Assembly: GCA_900696645.1 (NCBI GenBank)
Contig: CAADGV010000002.1
Location: 1-5,850, forward strand
Length of the DNA: 5,850 nucleotides
Source: an uncultured Chlorobiota bacterium
GTDB taxonomy: Bacteria > Bacteroidota > Ignavibacteria > UBA10030 > UBA6906
Direction of reading: 5' to 3'
Numbering within the stretch: the first letter of the stretch is position 1; every line of letters starts with the position of its first letter. The notes beneath the pieces were generated by a model, which did not search any database, was not told the DNA's origin, and worked only from the letters and a program-made list of their open reading frames with translations. The translations under genes and the position numbers were made by a program. Shown here one piece after another: positions 1 through 5,850 of the stretch.

Positions 1-39
1 CGTTATGTGCAAGCCGTTGAATTTATAGCGGCCACGAGT
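1..39 (+). repeat. Inverted partial copy of 481-518, including attC-like outer box
   Basis: Positions 1-39 align with the reverse complement of about 481-518. Shared blocks are GTTATGT, GCA, GCCG, TTGA and finally AGCGGCCACGAGT, a perfect 13-base match (27-39 against 493-481). Small gaps lie between the blocks. The similarity stops just after the 13-base block. Read on the minus strand, positions 1-10 are GCACATAACG, identical to the outer box at 608-617. Confidence 0.5.
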
Positions 40-51
40 TGCCGCCCCCAT
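1..51 (-). CDS. Possible start of a further gene, cut by the window edge
   Basis: An ATG at 51 is preceded by GAGAGG exactly seven bases upstream, a good ribosome-binding site by the standard of the core operon. The visible product is MGAATRGRYKFNGLHIT. Only 17 codons are inside the window, so neither the length nor the family can be judged. It competes with another reading of the same bases, in which a different frame (ANQWGRQLVAAINSTACT then TAA at 3-5) is the tail of the decayed methyltransferase. Confidence 0.33.
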   Translation of the reverse strand, partial: MGAATRGRYKFNGLHIT

Positions 52-67
52 TGGTTAGCCTCTCAAC

Positions 68-587
68 TCAAATATCAAGACGGTAAGCGAATGAATGCAA
101 TGAGCAATGGATTTTCTTTGCTCTAAGCAATTCTGTGGCTGAGAACTGACTGCCAATTTCAAGACGACATCCCGATGCTGGATGATGAGTCCAAGCCACC
201 CAAGACCATGCACCTTGCGCCCGTTCCTCGTCCCTCTCCCCGTTCGGTTTATACAGCCAACGCACACCAGAGTTTGCCAAGTATCTGCAATCAGGATGCG
301 CTCCAAAGAAATCAAGTCCAATCGTAAATCGGGCGCTCATCAGCACATGAAACATATCGTTCTTGATGTGCCAACTCTGGGTGTCCCCCGCTACACTCTT
401 TCAGATCATTCGAGTACGCTTCACAACCCACGGCTCGGAATGCCTTGCACACTGCCTGGCTTTTCTCGCAACTGATAAGCACTCGTGGCCGCTTTTCAAT
501 ACGGCCTGCAACATAACAACCCGCACCACGGCGGTCGCTTCGCTCCCTCAACTCTTCGCTCGTTTGTATGTGGTTAGTTGTGCTCAT
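68..587 (-). pseudogene. Frameshifted phage-type DNA (cytosine) methyltransferase remnant
   Basis: Residues 35-71 counted from the ATG at 587 (RVLISCEKSQAVCKAFRAVG, then EAYSNDLKECSGGHPE) match the start of the short phage DNA methyltransferase family, usually M-x-V-L-I-A-C-E-x-S. This includes the SAM-binding region. The frame then breaks near 371-374. Skipping one T turns GAGTTGGCAC into GAG TGG CAC (E-W-H), and the expected sequence resumes as HIKNDMFHVL, then GAHPDCRYLANSGVRWLYK, containing the P-x-C-x-x-L-A-N-S-G-V-R-W-L catalytic-region signature. This second frame runs to a TGA at 68-70, but after about position 225 it no longer resembles the family. The first 34 residues are encoded by the palindrome at 508-618 and are unlike other family members. 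There is no Shine-Dalgarno sequence. It is probably inactive unless the extra base is a sequencing error. Confidence 0.72.
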
Positions 588-618
588 CGCTGCGTGGTGC
601 TTTGTCCGTTATGTGCCA
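508..618 (-). repeat. attC-like imperfect palindrome (integron cassette recombination site candidate)
   Basis: Read on the minus strand, the element opens with GGCACATAAC and closes with GTTATGTTGC, whose ACATAAC and GTTATGT pair over 7 bases. Inside, after spacers of 7 and 5 bases, GCACCACG (593-600) pairs perfectly with CGTGGTGC (523-530). About 62 bases remain as a central segment. Outer box, unpaired spacer, inner box and variable centre is the R-L-L-R architecture of attC sites, and 111 nt lies within the known size range. The AAC and GTT triplets needed for cleavage are present. Each outer box departs from the RYYYAAC/GTTRRRY consensus at one position. The gene upstream stops with TAA inside the first box. 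No integrase is in the window. It could instead be a MITE-like palindrome. Confidence 0.42.
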
Positions 619-630
619 TGCTCGGACAAA
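601..630. repeat. 8-bp perfect hairpin over the 3' end of the 81-aa gene
   Basis: TTTGTCCG (601-608) is exactly complementary to CGGACAAA (623-630), with a 14-base loop that itself contains ATG-TGC-CAT. The hairpin includes the TAA stop of the 81-aa gene. On neither strand is it followed by a run of T, so it is not a standard intrinsic terminator. It shares bases with the outer box of the attC-like palindrome, so the two structures would compete. Confidence 0.45.
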
Positions 631-854
631 TACTGCCTAAGTTCATCAGCACATTTATGAATAGCCCTTGTTTTCTCATTCCACGCTTCTATTACATCAT
701 CTGACATTTCATTCATCGCCCATTGCCAAGTTTCATCTATTGCACAATAATCAGCTTTACGCTCGGCTTCAATTGCATCCAATAAAGCACGGCACATAAC
801 AAGCAGTTTTGCGTCATGCTGGATGGGCGTTGTGTTTTTAACTTCTGTACTCAT
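609..854 (-). CDS. 81-aa helical protein of unknown function ending inside an attC-like palindrome
   Basis: This is an 81-aa acidic, helical protein. Residues 14-35 (from DAKLLVMCRALLDAIEAERK) and 45-78 (from QWAMNEMSDDVIEAWNEK to ELRQYLSEH) look like two or three amphipathic helices, with isolated cysteines at 21, 37 and 68 that form no motif. I do not recognise the family. In contrast to the upstream genes there is no Shine-Dalgarno sequence; the bases before ATG are TATAGTTGAT. The gene follows a 34-base A+T-rich gap, the longest between genes so far. Its TAA stop falls inside the box GGCACATAAC that starts the palindrome at 508-618. A stop placed inside the first box of attC is typical of integron cassette genes. 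An internal GTTATGTGCC at 791-800 repeats the same box in the opposite sense. Confidence 0.6.
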   Translation of the reverse strand: MSTEVKNTTPIQHDAKLLVMCRALLDAIEAERKADYCAIDETWQWAMNEMSDDVIEAWNEKTRAIHKCADELRQYLSEHGT

Positions 855-1489: not shown

Positions 1490-2485
1490 TCATATCCCCA
1501 ACGGGTTATTCGGGTCAATCGCCTCTTCTTTCTTCTTGTCAAATCCGAGGTATGACCATCGGGTTTTTACCATGCTCTGAACTTCATCTGCTTCTTCCAA
1601 CGTGAGTCCGTTTTGTTCTTTCAGGGCGAGTATTTTGTTCCCGATTTCAACGAGCTTGTGCCTGTCGGTTGTTGCCTTGATTTCGTTTACCAACTTCGGG
1701 ATGATGTCGCCGGGGATCGGTGTCCCATCTGTGAGTTGGCGCGAAGAACTAATCCGGGTCATCAAATCCTCATCCCAACCAAGTGCTTTTCCGACCTTCG
1801 TTAGACGCTCCACAATGCTTGAGATACTTGTCGGAGGCGTGAGTTCCCAAATCGGGAACTTGAGTTTTGCATCCTCTTTCCCGGCTACCATCTTTACCCA
1901 CAGCTTCATAGGAAGGTGAGCGAGTTTCGGTGTGCCGAAGAATAGTTTGGTGAGTCCGGCCAGATTGGTCAGAGCATCATACACGGCACTCCCGCTGTTC
2001 TTGCTTCCTGTCTCGAACAGATACGGGAGTGTACTGACAATCGTTCCCTTTGTCGGCTCAAGAACAAATGCCTTGAGGTTCATCGTGTATCGGCAGGCTT
2101 TCTTCCGCAACTCCTTATCTTCAGTATCGAACAAACCCAATGTGAGACAGACACATTCACTTTCCTCGCCGACTCCGTATTGCTTGCCGCCGATGTTCTC
2201 GGAGATTCGGTGTAAGCATGTGTCGCCGTCGCATTTGCGGATTGCTTGGCTGTTTGAACCGTACAGGGCGAAGCGGTCATCAAATACGTCAGGGATGTTG
2301 TCAGACGGGACGACGATCATCAGTTCCTTCGGCTCCTCTCCATACAGTGCCCTGATTTCGGGGAAGGCATCTATATTCCAGTGGTCGAGGGCGCGGGGAA
2401 GGTTGCGCTCCGTCTTTTCCCCCGTCTTGATTTTCCCGCGTGGGTCGGTCTGGATTTTTTGCCTGCGGTGTTCGGAGGTTATCAT
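1490..2485 (-). CDS. phiC31 gp3-like protein (recombination directionality factor family)
   Basis: This 331-aa protein begins at the ATG at 2485, overlapping the nuclease stop by ATGA and preceded by AAGGTGA about five bases away. The N-terminal half has the signature I associate with the gp3-like RDF family. It starts with a basic opening (DPRGKIKTGEK) and ALDHWNID at 32-39. IRALYGEEPKELMIVVPSD then follows (44-62), along with a large aromatic segment, RFALYGSN. Cysteines in CDGDTC (85-90), CVC (111-113) and Cys131 could form a zinc site. The C-terminal third (about 260-305) is helical and charged, and the gene ends in DPNNPLGI. The phiC31 protein switches serine integrase from integration to excision. 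Many relatives sit next to exonuclease genes rather than integrases, and that is the case here, so a role in DNA replication or recombination is equally possible. No integrase is present in the window. Confidence 0.68.
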   Translation of the reverse strand: MITSEHRRQKIQTDPRGKIKTGEKTERNLPRALDHWNIDAFPEIRALYGEEPKELMIVVPSDNIPDVFDDRFALYGSNSQAIRKCDGDTCLHRISENIGGKQYGVGEESECVCLTLGLFDTEDKELRKKACRYTMNLKAFVLEPTKGTIVSTLPYLFETGSKNSGSAVYDALTNLAGLTKLFFGTPKLAHLPMKLWVKMVAGKEDAKLKFPIWELTPPTSISSIVERLTKVGKALGWDEDLMTRISSSRQLTDGTPIPGDIIPKLVNEIKATTDRHKLVEIGNKILALKEQNGLTLEEADEVQSMVKTRWSYLGFDKKKEEAIDPNNPLGI

Positions 2486-3432
2486 GCTGTCACCTTCTTG
2501 TTTTTCTTCCCGTTCTTGTTTTCGATTGATGCTTCGAGTTGTGTTGTGAGTGGGTCACTCGCCGCAATCTGGGCGTTGATTTTCTCTATCTCCACCGGAG
2601 CAATAACCGGAATCCCCGAAAGTAAACTTCTCCCACCGAAATCAATCCTGTCCGGCATGGTGAAAACTGTCGGCGTGTTGTTCGGATTGTTGTATCGCCA
2701 GAGTTCAAGGGCAAATATGCTCAATTCGCCGTCACGCTTCATCTGCTCCTTTGTGCGGATGTCAATATCAAAGCCCGACTTGTTCCCCGCGTCAAGGTAG
2801 AGAACAAACGTCCCGACAATCGGCATACCAAACAGGTTCATTTCTTCAAGCTGTATCGCGTAGTGGGCTGTCTGCAAATGGTAGTTTTTGTCTTTCCCGC
2901 CCGTCTTGATGTCGCCGATGTAAAGCCCCGTTTCCGGGACAACCCGAACCGTACTCTTGGTGAGCGCATATTCTCCGGCTTGCAAGACGCACGGTAGGTC
3001 AACCGTCCCGGCGGTCTCTTGCACATGAGAACATGAAACTACTTCCGAGCCAAGTACCTGCGGCTTGACTACTTCCATGAATTGAGCGAAACGGATAATC
3101 TGCAACCACTCTTCCTGCGTGAATAGAATCCGGCCAAGTTCGTCTTTGAAGGATATCGCGCCCTCCATCAGTCCCTTGTTGATCCCGGCGTGTATGCGGC
3201 TGCCTTTGTTCAGTGCCCGATTTACAATCGCCTCCGCCTCAAAGTTTCCTATCTTGCCGCGCCAGAGCGATAAGAAGGGCTTGTTGATGATGTTCAGGAA
3301 GGTCGTCGTGGAGTTGTAGTAGAAACGGCCATCTCCGACGGGTTGCGACCATTTTGCATCCCCAAATTCTTTCGGGCGGGGTATCGGGTAGTACCTGTCG
3401 TCGAACCATTCAATGCGGGTTACATCGTCCAT
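2482..3432 (-). CDS. PD-(D/E)XK nuclease, RecB/Cas4-like (probable phage exonuclease)
   Basis: This 316-aa protein starts at the ATG at 3432, with GGAG seven bases upstream, 14 bases after the ATPase stop. The open frame extends further upstream but that part would overlap the ATPase gene. The motifs of the RecB/Cas4 branch appear in order: STTTFLNIINKPFLSLW (41-57), a typical N-terminal helix; GSRIHAGINKG (77-87) with the motif I His81; GTVD (142-145) with the metal-binding Asp145; IGDIKTG (172-178) with Asp174 and Lys176, the D-x-K catalytic pair; and QTAHYA (187-192) with Gln187 and Tyr191. The catalytic site therefore looks intact. No Cys cluster for an iron-sulphur centre like that of Cas4 or AddB is evident. 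The tail (300-316) is a Lys/Asn-rich, probably disordered segment. It probably degrades or resects DNA during phage replication or recombination. The stop overlaps the RDF-like gene start (ATGA). Confidence 0.85.
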   Translation of the reverse strand: MDDVTRIEWFDDRYYPIPRPKEFGDAKWSQPVGDGRFYYNSTTTFLNIINKPFLSLWRGKIGNFEAEAIVNRALNKGSRIHAGINKGLMEGAISFKDELGRILFTQEEWLQIIRFAQFMEVVKPQVLGSEVVSCSHVQETAGTVDLPCVLQAGEYALTKSTVRVVPETGLYIGDIKTGGKDKNYHLQTAHYAIQLEEMNLFGMPIVGTFVLYLDAGNKSGFDIDIRTKEQMKRDGELSIFALELWRYNNPNNTPTVFTMPDRIDFGGRSLLSGIPVIAPVEIEKINAQIAASDPLTTQLEASIENKNGKKNKKVTA

Positions 3433-3446
3433 TCGTTTTCTCCGGT

Positions 3447-4730
3447 TTAGAGTACAAATGCGCTCTTGTTCTTCATGTACGAAATGAATTCCGTCAAGAC
3501 GGCTGTTTGGAACCCTCTCGTACAATCACCCACCCCGTATTTCAGGTGGATATATTCCTCAAGAATCGTGTTTGCGACTTCATTCACACCCCTTTCAAAA
3601 CACACATCGGATATAATTATCTCACCCTCGTAAGCAACACCCAGCATTTCCTTGCTGTCGAATATGGCACACTTCACGGGGTAATCAACCGGAAAACCGA
3701 CTTCTTTGAAGAATTCCATCGCCTGATTGAGTGTTGCCCTGTACAATGGAGGCATTTCTATGTCACGAAATATCAAACCGGTTTGGGACACCTTGAATGC
3801 CGCCCCGACATTTTGATCGCCGATGATTGGGCGCAGAGAGTTGAAGATTTTTGTCGGGATGATTATGTGGTTGTGTATCTCATCGGGCTTTAGAAGCCCA
3901 GAGAAGCCGCGCGGGGCAAGCCTGTTCTTTTTCACGCACGACCTGAACACATGCGAAATTTCACCCGGAGTTATATCGGCATAATCGGCAACCGTCCCCT
4001 CAATGTATTGCTGCTCACACGACTCCATCAGTACGCGCATGATTACCTCTTCGTTTTCGCAACGATAGAGAAGCCCCCATATTTTTTCCTCAACTTCCCA
4101 GCGATACTTCACAAGTCGGTTTTCTTCAATGGCAATCTCGGAGAAATCATAGTCGTAAACAGAATTTAGGTTTGTCTCAAAACACCTTATCCCCTTCCGG
4201 TAGATGTTCGCTACGTTCCCGGTTTTCTCAAGGATGCGCCCCATCGGGCACTCAAACAGAATCTTCTTCCTCTCAGCGAAATACTTGTTAAATTCCGCAA
4301 GAAATAGGAGCACGTCCCCGCTCAGGTCAATGTAGAAGTGGGTTTCATTCTCTTTTGGATGAATCTCGTCAACGACTTCAATCGAGCATCCACCCTCATC
4401 AAGGGCGTTGCAATAAATTTCCCTCAGTGCCTGCCAAAGTTCCCAATCCTTCCCCATCTCGGTTGTTATTGAGGTCTTTCGCCCGTTGATAGTGATAAGG
4501 TCGTAATCGTCTCCCCGGAATGATTCTTTCACCGTGTCAATGCTGATCTCATCAGTACCAGAGAATAGCCCGACGCGATACTTTTTCCGCAACAGATAGG
4601 CAAGAGCATACTTATTGCCGATCCCAAATTGCCCAATCTTTGTCTCATCAGTGCGCTTACTGGACGCACCAAGTAAGTACAAAGCCTTTTCATCAAGTAA
4701 TCCGGTATTCTTTATTTTGAGATATTTCAT
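3447..4730 (-). CDS. GHKL/Hsp90-like ATP-binding protein with reordered motifs and a C-terminal EExxH segment
   Basis: This 427-aa protein has a near-perfect AAGGAG five bases before the ATG; a GTG three bases earlier is a less likely start. Residues 32-48 (IGQFGIGNKYALAYLLR) closely resemble the glycine loop and helix that close over ATP in Hsp90 and MutL-type GHKL ATPases. Residues 103-114 (REIYCNALDEGG) match the N-box (E-x3-N-x-x-D) that holds the magnesium ion. In classical GHKL folds the N-box comes first, so the order here is reversed, as in a circular permutation. The segments YRKGIRC (177-183) and IEENRLVKYRWEVE look like further family-conserved stretches. Near the C-terminus, EEYIHLKYG followed by DCTRGFQ (391-408) is reminiscent of a zincin HExxH helix with the first His replaced by Glu. 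Similar proteins are, from memory, annotated in phages simply as ATP-binding proteins. The substrate is unknown. It lies 14 bases upstream of the nuclease gene. Confidence 0.75.
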   Translation of the reverse strand: MKYLKIKNTGLLDEKALYLLGASSKRTDETKIGQFGIGNKYALAYLLRKKYRVGLFSGTDEISIDTVKESFRGDDYDLITINGRKTSITTEMGKDWELWQALREIYCNALDEGGCSIEVVDEIHPKENETHFYIDLSGDVLLFLAEFNKYFAERKKILFECPMGRILEKTGNVANIYRKGIRCFETNLNSVYDYDFSEIAIEENRLVKYRWEVEEKIWGLLYRCENEEVIMRVLMESCEQQYIEGTVADYADITPGEISHVFRSCVKKNRLAPRGFSGLLKPDEIHNHIIIPTKIFNSLRPIIGDQNVGAAFKVSQTGLIFRDIEMPPLYRATLNQAMEFFKEVGFPVDYPVKCAIFDSKEMLGVAYEGEIIISDVCFERGVNEVANTILEEYIHLKYGVGDCTRGFQTAVLTEFISYMKNKSAFVL

Positions 4731-4990
4731 CACTTCTCCTTATCAATGATTTGAAATCTGTTTGCTGTTTGGTAGCATCGAGGGTGCATGTCAACGAAGG
4801 CGGCGACCTTTACAATGTTGCCGCGAATGACTTCAACTTCTGTCTCACAAACTTCCCCGCAAATCGAACAGATTGGAGTACATTCGTCAACCTTGCGTTG
4901 GCGTTTGTATGGCACTTTCTCCATTTTGAAATCGTATGGTAATGCTGTTGGCATTTTTCCCCCGTTCATAATTGCGGCAAGATGGTTCAC
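4730..4990 (-). CDS. 86-aa Cys-rich, probably zinc-binding protein (GTG start)
   Basis: The protein is 86 aa if translation begins at the GTG at 4990. That start is preferred because it overlaps the upstream TGA (GTGA) and has AGAGGA six to seven bases upstream. Internal ATGs at 4969 and 4954 are alternatives giving 79 or 74 aa; 4954 follows a G-run. The N-terminus (NHLAAIMNGGKMPTALPYDF) precedes a basic linker. It leads to a cysteine cluster, ECTPICSICGEVC, with Cys37, 41, 44 and 48, and a later HPRC (His69, Cys72). Four of these could bind zinc, separated by a short beta hairpin. The function is unknown, but the fold is probably a small treble-clef or ribbon. The stop TGA shares one base with the ATG of the GHKL-like gene (TGATG), which suggests coupled translation. 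Confidence 0.68.
   Translation of the reverse strand: MNHLAAIMNGGKMPTALPYDFKMEKVPYKRQRKVDECTPICSICGEVCETEVEVIRGNIVKVAAFVDMHPRCYQTANRFQIIDKEK
4735..4740 (-). promoter_or_regulatory. Strong Shine-Dalgarno for the GHKL-like gene
   Basis: AAGGAG lies just before the GTG-ATG pair at 4733/4730. Its spacing of about five bases favours the ATG at 4730. It lies inside the end of the upstream Cys-rich gene, so the two are probably translated in a coupled way. Confidence 0.6.
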
Positions 4991-5238: not shown

Positions 5239-5420
5239 TCTGTTACCTCAACCCTGTGATTACGAATACCTAAAAAAGTCTGCCTCGACTGTCTTTTTCT
5301 TGTCAAGTGAAAATGCTTGCAATTAGGACAACGATAATAATACTGCCCAAAAATTCTTCCAAACCATTTTGCTCCGCGCTTTGTATAATATACCCGCTTT
5401 TCGCAGATTGCGGTTTTCAT
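5235..5420 (-). CDS. 61-aa zinc-ribbon-like protein (CPNC motif)
   Basis: This is a basic 61-aa protein centred on YYYRCPNCKHFHLTRKR (residues 27-43). The C-x2-C pair (Cys31, Cys34) followed by His36 and His38 looks like a zinc knuckle. The pattern Y-R-C-P-x-C-x-x-x-H-L-T recurs in small phage and prophage proteins of unknown role. Tyr, Arg and Lys are abundant, which fits nucleic-acid binding, though that is inference. The start at 5420 is preferred because it overlaps the preceding stop as ATGA; an in-frame ATG at 5432 would add MGRA. The first 15 bases of the gene are identical to the first 15 of the upstream signal-peptide gene, so MKTAI opens both proteins. The stop overlaps the next start (ATGA). 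Confidence 0.7.
   Translation of the reverse strand: MKTAICEKRVYYTKRGAKWFGRIFGQYYYRCPNCKHFHLTRKRQSRQTFLGIRNHRVEVTE
5406..5420 (-). repeat. 15-bp direct repeat at a gene start (copy 2)
   Basis: This is the second copy of ATGAAAACCGCAATC, at the start of the 61-aa zinc-ribbon gene. Supporting detail is given with the copy at 5720-5734. Confidence 0.7.
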
Positions 5421-5734
5421 AGCCCTGCCCATCCCCTTAGAAGTCTGTATGCCTTCGGCGTTAGTGCTGACAAACTTAATGGAGTTGCACCTATCGGCTC
5501 AATGAATCTATCACCGCCACCCGCCATCTCGTAACCTAAGAGCATCCACTTTGTTTCTTCTTTCGTCATGTCCCCCACAACAAAAAGCGTATCACCGATA
5601 AGTTGTACTCCAATCCAATGCCTCTCATATCCCCCGTCGCGAGTATCAACCCACGAAAATGTGCACGGGAAGTACCTTTCTTGCGCCTGAACCGAAACAG
5701 TTAAGAGAAACAGTGACAGGATTGCGGTTTTCAT
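5417..5734 (-). CDS. Small exported protein with N-terminal signal peptide, unknown function
   Basis: This gene encodes 105 aa. The N-terminus MKTAILSLFLLTVSVQAQ is a textbook Sec signal peptide: a Lys, a hydrophobic core at residues 4-13, and a V-Q-A cleavage site near residue 17. There is no lipobox Cys. The mature part, about 88 aa, has one cysteine (Cys24) and alternating hydrophobic stretches such as HWIGVQLIGDTLFVVGDM, suggesting a small beta-rich domain. It ends in a Leu/Trp-rich tail. The start at 5734 is chosen because it overlaps the upstream stop (ATGA) and begins the signal peptide; the in-frame ATG 24 bases upstream would add a charged MRVHREQA leader. I do not recognise the family. 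A secreted protein inside an otherwise DNA-metabolism operon could modify the envelope or be a phage moron, but that is inference. Confidence 0.72.
   Translation of the reverse strand: MKTAILSLFLLTVSVQAQERYFPCTFSWVDTRDGGYERHWIGVQLIGDTLFVVGDMTKEETKWMLLGYEMAGGGDRFIEPIGATPLSLSALTPKAYRLLRGWAGL
5720..5734 (-). repeat. 15-bp direct repeat at a gene start (copy 1)
   Basis: ATGAAAACCGCAATC opens the signal-peptide gene and occurs identically at 5406-5420, where it opens the zinc-ribbon gene 314 bases downstream. The identity covers exactly the start codon and the next four codons (MKTAI), with no similarity upstream or downstream. Confidence 0.7.
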
Positions 5735-5850
5735 TGCTTGTTCTCGGTGTACTCGCACATCCCGATACAGTTCTCATCCCCGCAATGCGGGCATGGGAAG
5801 TGCATCTTCGTCTCGGTGAGCTTTTCCATCACCACCGCAAGCACAAGCCC
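5731..5850 (-). CDS. C-terminal part of a Cys-rich (zinc-ribbon-like) small protein, cut by window edge
   Basis: This reading frame is open from the window edge to a TGA at 5731-5733. The last 39 codons are visible and end in MCEYTENKQ. The visible part contains FPCPHCGDENCIGMC, in which four cysteines (C-x2-C-x4-C-x3-C) could hold one zinc ion. The true start is unknown. An in-frame ATG at 5829 would give a 32-aa protein, but it has no convincing ribosome-binding site, so the gene probably begins beyond the window. Its stop overlaps the start of the next gene in an ATGA, which indicates translational coupling within one operon. No specific function can be assigned. It may be one of the small zinc-binding proteins common in phage early regions. 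Confidence 0.6.
   Translation of the reverse strand, partial: GLVLAVVMEKLTETKMHFPCPHCGDENCIGMCEYTENKQ

Follow-up and report, generated by a model that had tools for sequence, protein, structure and literature searches.

Box-bounded gene units and an attC-like palindrome at the edge of a phage-like contig: a possible remnant of an integron-type cassette array

Clusters of attC sites without an integrase are already known from phages. Qi et al. (2023; PMC9892861) described 17 such clusters, with methyltransferases among their cargo, and five of the six phage sites tested recombined in an IntI1-dependent manner; Tetrasphaera phage TJE1 is the phage whose two tested attCs recombined, and Polaribacter phage P12002L carries attCs in divergent directions (PMC9892861). 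Extrahelical bases have been identified as the first, absolutely conserved determinant of strand choice, and sites stripped of these bases still recombined, at a lower rate and with their polarity partly lost (PMC2727003). Here, we describe a window of 5,850 bp, the whole stretch of DNA that was analysed, which is an entire contig (C2) of a 46-contig, 4.2-Mb bin. We tentatively read its left 0.85 kb, with a probability of roughly 45%, as the remnant of an integron-type cassette array, degenerate or atypical, in phage-like DNA. What distinguishes C2 from the phage clusters described in 2023 is the poor fit of its site to the rules for attCs.

Positions 889–5758 of C2 hold a block of phage-like genes on the minus strand, comprising an HNH nuclease gene (1105–1542), a Gp3-like gene (1490–2485), an exonuclease gene (phrog_298; 2482–3525), a gene matching phrog_8203 at 5.9e-118 (3447–4733), and small genes, all on that strand. 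Neither the phrog_8203 relative nor a small 81-aa gene to the left of the block was found in 391 other sampled genomes of the class, and C2 may therefore be a phage that was binned with its host or by chance. Within the block, GATTGCGGTTTTCATAGC occurs at two gene starts (5406–5423 and 5720–5737) as a 94% repeat. The contig has no intI, and hence no complete integron with intI and attI beside an array. Like the integrase-less clusters (CALINs) of TJE1 and P12002L (PMC9892861), it carries small genes and a methyltransferase gene in phage DNA that lacks intI.

The two leftmost genes are separated by a palindrome, designated site W (positions 511–614). Read on the plus strand, ACATAAC (511–517) is followed by the 5-nt spacer AACCC, the inner box GCACCACG (523–530), and a centre of 62 nt (531–592); the right half consists of CGTGGTGC (593–600), the 7-nt spacer TTTGTCC, and GTTATGT (608–614). 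The sequence-only reading had proposed an attC-like recombination site here, and the palindrome on which it relied, with boxes ACATAAC/GTTATGT, perfect 8-bp inner boxes, and an unpaired centre, is present exactly as it claimed. Its spacers of 7 and 5 nt are correct as read on the minus strand, and the TAA stop codon that it saw inside an outer box belongs to the minus-strand ORF at 609–854 and lies in the box at 608–614. It had also described the flanking genes as lacking Shine-Dalgarno sequences, which holds for both the methyltransferase remnant and the 81-aa ORF; several genes to the right of them in C2 do have one. The plan of W is that of an attC in its inverted outer boxes (R''/R') with AAC and GTT cores, all 7 pairs of which are formed, and in its inner inverted boxes (8 of 8 paired), unpaired spacers, and variable centre. 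Each outer box has one mismatch to the consensus RYYYAAC/GTTRRRY, as the sequence-only reading had pointed out; the mismatches are real and are no objection, since the TJE1 sites, with boxes such as GTATAAC/GTTATGC, have them too. TJE1 resembles C2 further in that its palindromic sites lie between genes and have boxes of the GTTATGC/GTTATAC type.

Taken by itself, a perfect 7/7 outer pair has a chance expectation of about 0.8 per window. The combination of a 7/7 outer pair and an 8/8 inner pair at attC-like spacing was absent from 4 Mb of Markov sequence and from 674 kb of real sequence, and its calculated chance is about 3e-4 per window. The W palindrome is unlikely to have arisen by chance, though this figure alone is not decisive because many patterns were open to choice. 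A transcription terminator was also considered for W and thought unlikely, given the 62-nt loop and the lack of a T-run after the palindrome.

The boxes of W recur at the left edge of the contig. The sequence GTTATGTGC is found at 2–10 and 608–616 on the plus strand and at 792–800 on the minus strand, i.e., three times in the first 800 bases versus ten times in the rest of the 4.2-Mb genome; the copy at 2–10 stands at the very start of the contig and is cut off by its edge, so that the left end of C2 falls exactly at a box. Two units are thereby delimited, with genes that extend from box to box: unit 1 (2–517) has a gapped 38-nt inverted repeat at its bounds (2–39/481–517), and unit 2 (608–800) has a 14-of-15 inverted repeat (608–622/786–800). 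The score of each repeat was reached in 0 of 3000 random trials. Among 408 GTT anchors in a small control with real sequence, 2 equalled unit 2 in the quality of their partner; at this frequency of about 0.5%, the repeat of unit 2 is suggestive. In the same bacterial family, chromosomal cassettes near IntI (G013, L114) are built in a similar way, with the start of a cassette and its own end forming an extended inverted repeat, which has 15 matches with one gap in L114, compared with 14 of 15 and the gapped 38 nt in C2. In contrast to W, with its GTTATGT boxes and no extrahelical base, the attCs of L114 are GC-rich and have GTTAGG boxes and an extrahelical base.

If the left end of C2 is a cassette remnant, the two short gene units (the decayed methyltransferase gene and the 62/81-aa gene), each between inverted GTT-type boxes, would be the cassettes, and the palindromes between units would serve, or would once have served, as the recombination sites. 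An integron integrase would come from a host, not from the phage DNA, which carries none; it would fold one strand of a palindrome, cut at G|TT of the outer box, and insert or excise a unit. Site W would have lost, or never had, its extrahelical bases and would work weakly, with poor polarity. Of this scenario, the boxes and inverted repeats are observed, as are the phage-like context and an integrase gene in the bin; an integron integrase may have made the units, and the integrase of the bin may be the one that acts on them.

The 8 inner pairs of W are continuous, and no extrahelical base is present in its R''-L'' arm; in contrast, an unpaired base interrupts the inner stem in the sites of TJE1 and P12002L. 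The predicted single-strand fold of W was no better than those of shuffled sequences. For comparison with attCs, two home-made covariance models were used. R1 was built from nine sites, six beside IntI genes of the same class (L112, L114, and L119) and three in a Limisphaerales contig (L042), and R2 from eight of the R1 sites, two TJE1 sites, one P12002L site, and the aadA1 site, whose sequence was confirmed at 100% in plasmid records. Training sites were few because most of the IntI neighbourhoods fetched from the class (stretches of up to 15 kb) showed no recognisable array. The models detect attCs beyond their training sets, in L062, L064, L045, and L049 and on contig C14 of the bin (33.3 bits). 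R1 detects the sites of TJE1 and P12002L although no phage site went into it; it is limited in that the 146-nt sites of L114 were not recovered at full length. The scores on the two strands of 511–614 were 1.7 and −0.3 bits (R1) and 6.0 and 4.7 bits (R2), and no match was correctly paired. Unlike W, the TJE1 and P12002L sites match the models, at 15.9–22.7 bits with R1 and 27.8–42.8 bits with R2, whose training set included three of them; the L042 sites, which have the same length as W (104 nt), score about 42 bits. An Rfam search gave no match. When the whole of W was used in a DNA search of its own genome, no second copy was found, and patterns derived from W gave no matches or chance matches in viral contigs and 395 genomes of the phylum.

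The sequence-only reading had looked to a significant covariance-model score, to extrahelical bases in the fold, and to more copies at gene spacing for support. The home-made models gave no significant, properly paired match on either strand, folding revealed no extrahelical base in the inner stem, and only one complete site of the W kind was found. For want of an extrahelical base, a properly paired match, and a fold better than shuffles, we do not file W as a standard attC, and its attC status, judged from sequence and models, is unproven. The cassette reading as a whole keeps its footing in the two-unit plan with inverted GTT boxes beside phage-like genes, the intI and the canonical attC on other contigs of the bin, and the precedent of attCs in phages, and loses it in the model score, the extrahelical bases, and the complete copies.

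The best attC-model match in the window was a different, 42-nt attC-like site, designated V (794–835, plus strand). With R2, it scored 14.1 bits at a window-wide E value of 0.02, a modest value given that two models were applied; another run gave 8.5 bits. V is shorter than the attCs found in this analysis. A CALIN is defined by two or more attC sites spaced like cassettes; C2 offers W, which fails the models, V, which is weak at this E value, and a further box cut by the contig start. W had been assumed to lie on the minus strand. Two features shared with most reference sites, spacers of 5 then 7 nt and a C ahead of GTT, favour the plus strand instead, and V is also on that strand; both genes would then be reversed in their cassettes. 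A similar arrangement occurs in P12002L, in which an attC placed by the model is opposite to the flanking methyltransferase genes. The codons within the boxes do not decide the orientation, because ATG and TAA both occur in the boxes, which are symmetrical.

The gene of unit 1 is a decayed methyltransferase-like phage gene (phrog_757; 8–500, minus strand) that is both frameshifted and shortened. It begins at about 486–500 with a start that matches that of Vibrio phage 1.154.O, and ends in NQWG..., with the QWG motif kept near the box and a TAA in the edge box. Within 45–355 of the window (minus strand), a frameshift occurs around 345–350 and the middle of the gene is unrecognisable, owing to either pseudogene formation or a sequencing error. 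The 81-aa ORF of unit 2 (609–854, minus strand) would encode 62 aa if begun at the ATG at 797, inside the box. The differences between the window and the phage contig L060 are a weak hint in favour of this shorter start: the first 19 codons have 3 amino-acid-changing and 0 silent differences, and the remaining codons have 8 and 8. Positions 608–864 share 90% DNA identity over 257 bases with the IMG/VR phage contigs L058–L060, which encode a major head protein, a head protease, and a head morphogenesis gene, and this identity ends at 608, inside the outer box. In a sister contig, L144, the small gene lies in a swappable region flanked by terminator repeats, and the break at 608 can therefore have arisen without an integrase. 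The idea that an exact IntI crossover at 608/609 proves the orientation was dropped, because the junction of the phage relative, as L144 shows, lies in a terminator repeat.

These phage relatives bring in the explanation that we rank second, and which we regard as possible: small accessory phage genes brought together without an integron, through homologous or illegitimate recombination, into an ordinary mosaic whose hairpins are regulatory or accidental, and whose boxes recur since joins of this kind are promoted by short inverted repeats at the ends of genes. It agrees with L058 and L144, in which the same small gene occupies a swappable region with its junctions in terminator repeats, not in boxes, and with a site W that has neither extrahelical bases nor model support and whose fold is not unusually stable. 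However, a mosaic of this type does not predict units with extended inverted repeats on both sides that end in the same GTT box, nor does it predict the model match at V, and the cassette remnant is preferred. The variable small-gene region of L058/L060 and L144 resembles C2 in the 81-aa gene, common to L058–L060, and in another small gene, which is bounded by the inverted boxes GTTGTGTGC/GCACACAAC and followed by a 17-bp stem; that stem gave no attC-model match either. In this region, unlike in C2, half a terminator repeat takes the place of W after the 81-aa gene. A 782-bp block (L058:8250–9031/L144:3797–4578), which holds two small genes with inverted boxes at the bounds and the 17-bp stem, is 99.7% identical between L058 and L144, has flanks of 93% identity, and was therefore exchanged recently. 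A separate class of cassette site in phages such as C2 and L058/L144 is quite improbable; such sites would be perfect-stem palindromes that lack extrahelical bases and lie between mini-genes bounded by inverted boxes and mobilised by the integrases of hosts or by a different recombinase.

Were the units cassettes, host integrons would be a route by which phages of environmental bacteria swap small genes and methyltransferases, something that has so far been shown for only a few isolates, and an attC that works without extrahelical bases, if true, would bear on strand choice by the integrase. If they are not, the locus is a caution that patterns of boxes and palindromes alone do not make an attC.

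The remark that intI is absent applies to C2 only: the same bin has a true integron integrase on another contig, C38 (432.6 bits; cut-off, 265). The gene lies at L038:6751–7704 (contig C38 of G000), with an attI-like GTTAGGGC at about 7870. In the class, an integron integrase was found in 69 of 391 genomes, in many cases at contig ends. C38 itself ends about 0.3 kb past intI, where arrays typically break assemblies, and C2 likewise starts exactly at a box, with a GC content (0.485) close to the values of about 0.49–0.54 at the sampled loci of the bin. These features are consistent with the explanation ranked third, that the edge of the host's own chromosomal cassette array is joined to a prophage, through a true junction or an assembly chimera, and that no capture by a phage took place. 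We consider this unlikely. The genes of both units are phage-type (phrog_757, and a gene 90% identical to one in a capsid-encoding phage contig), the phage block and the small gene are without relatives in the 391 genomes of the class, and the attCs near integrases in relatives of the bin and on C14 look quite different. The C14 site is a canonical attC (L145:1501–1597; 33.3 bits with R1), and a second, weaker R2 match lies on the same contig (L145:787–849; 18.9 bits).
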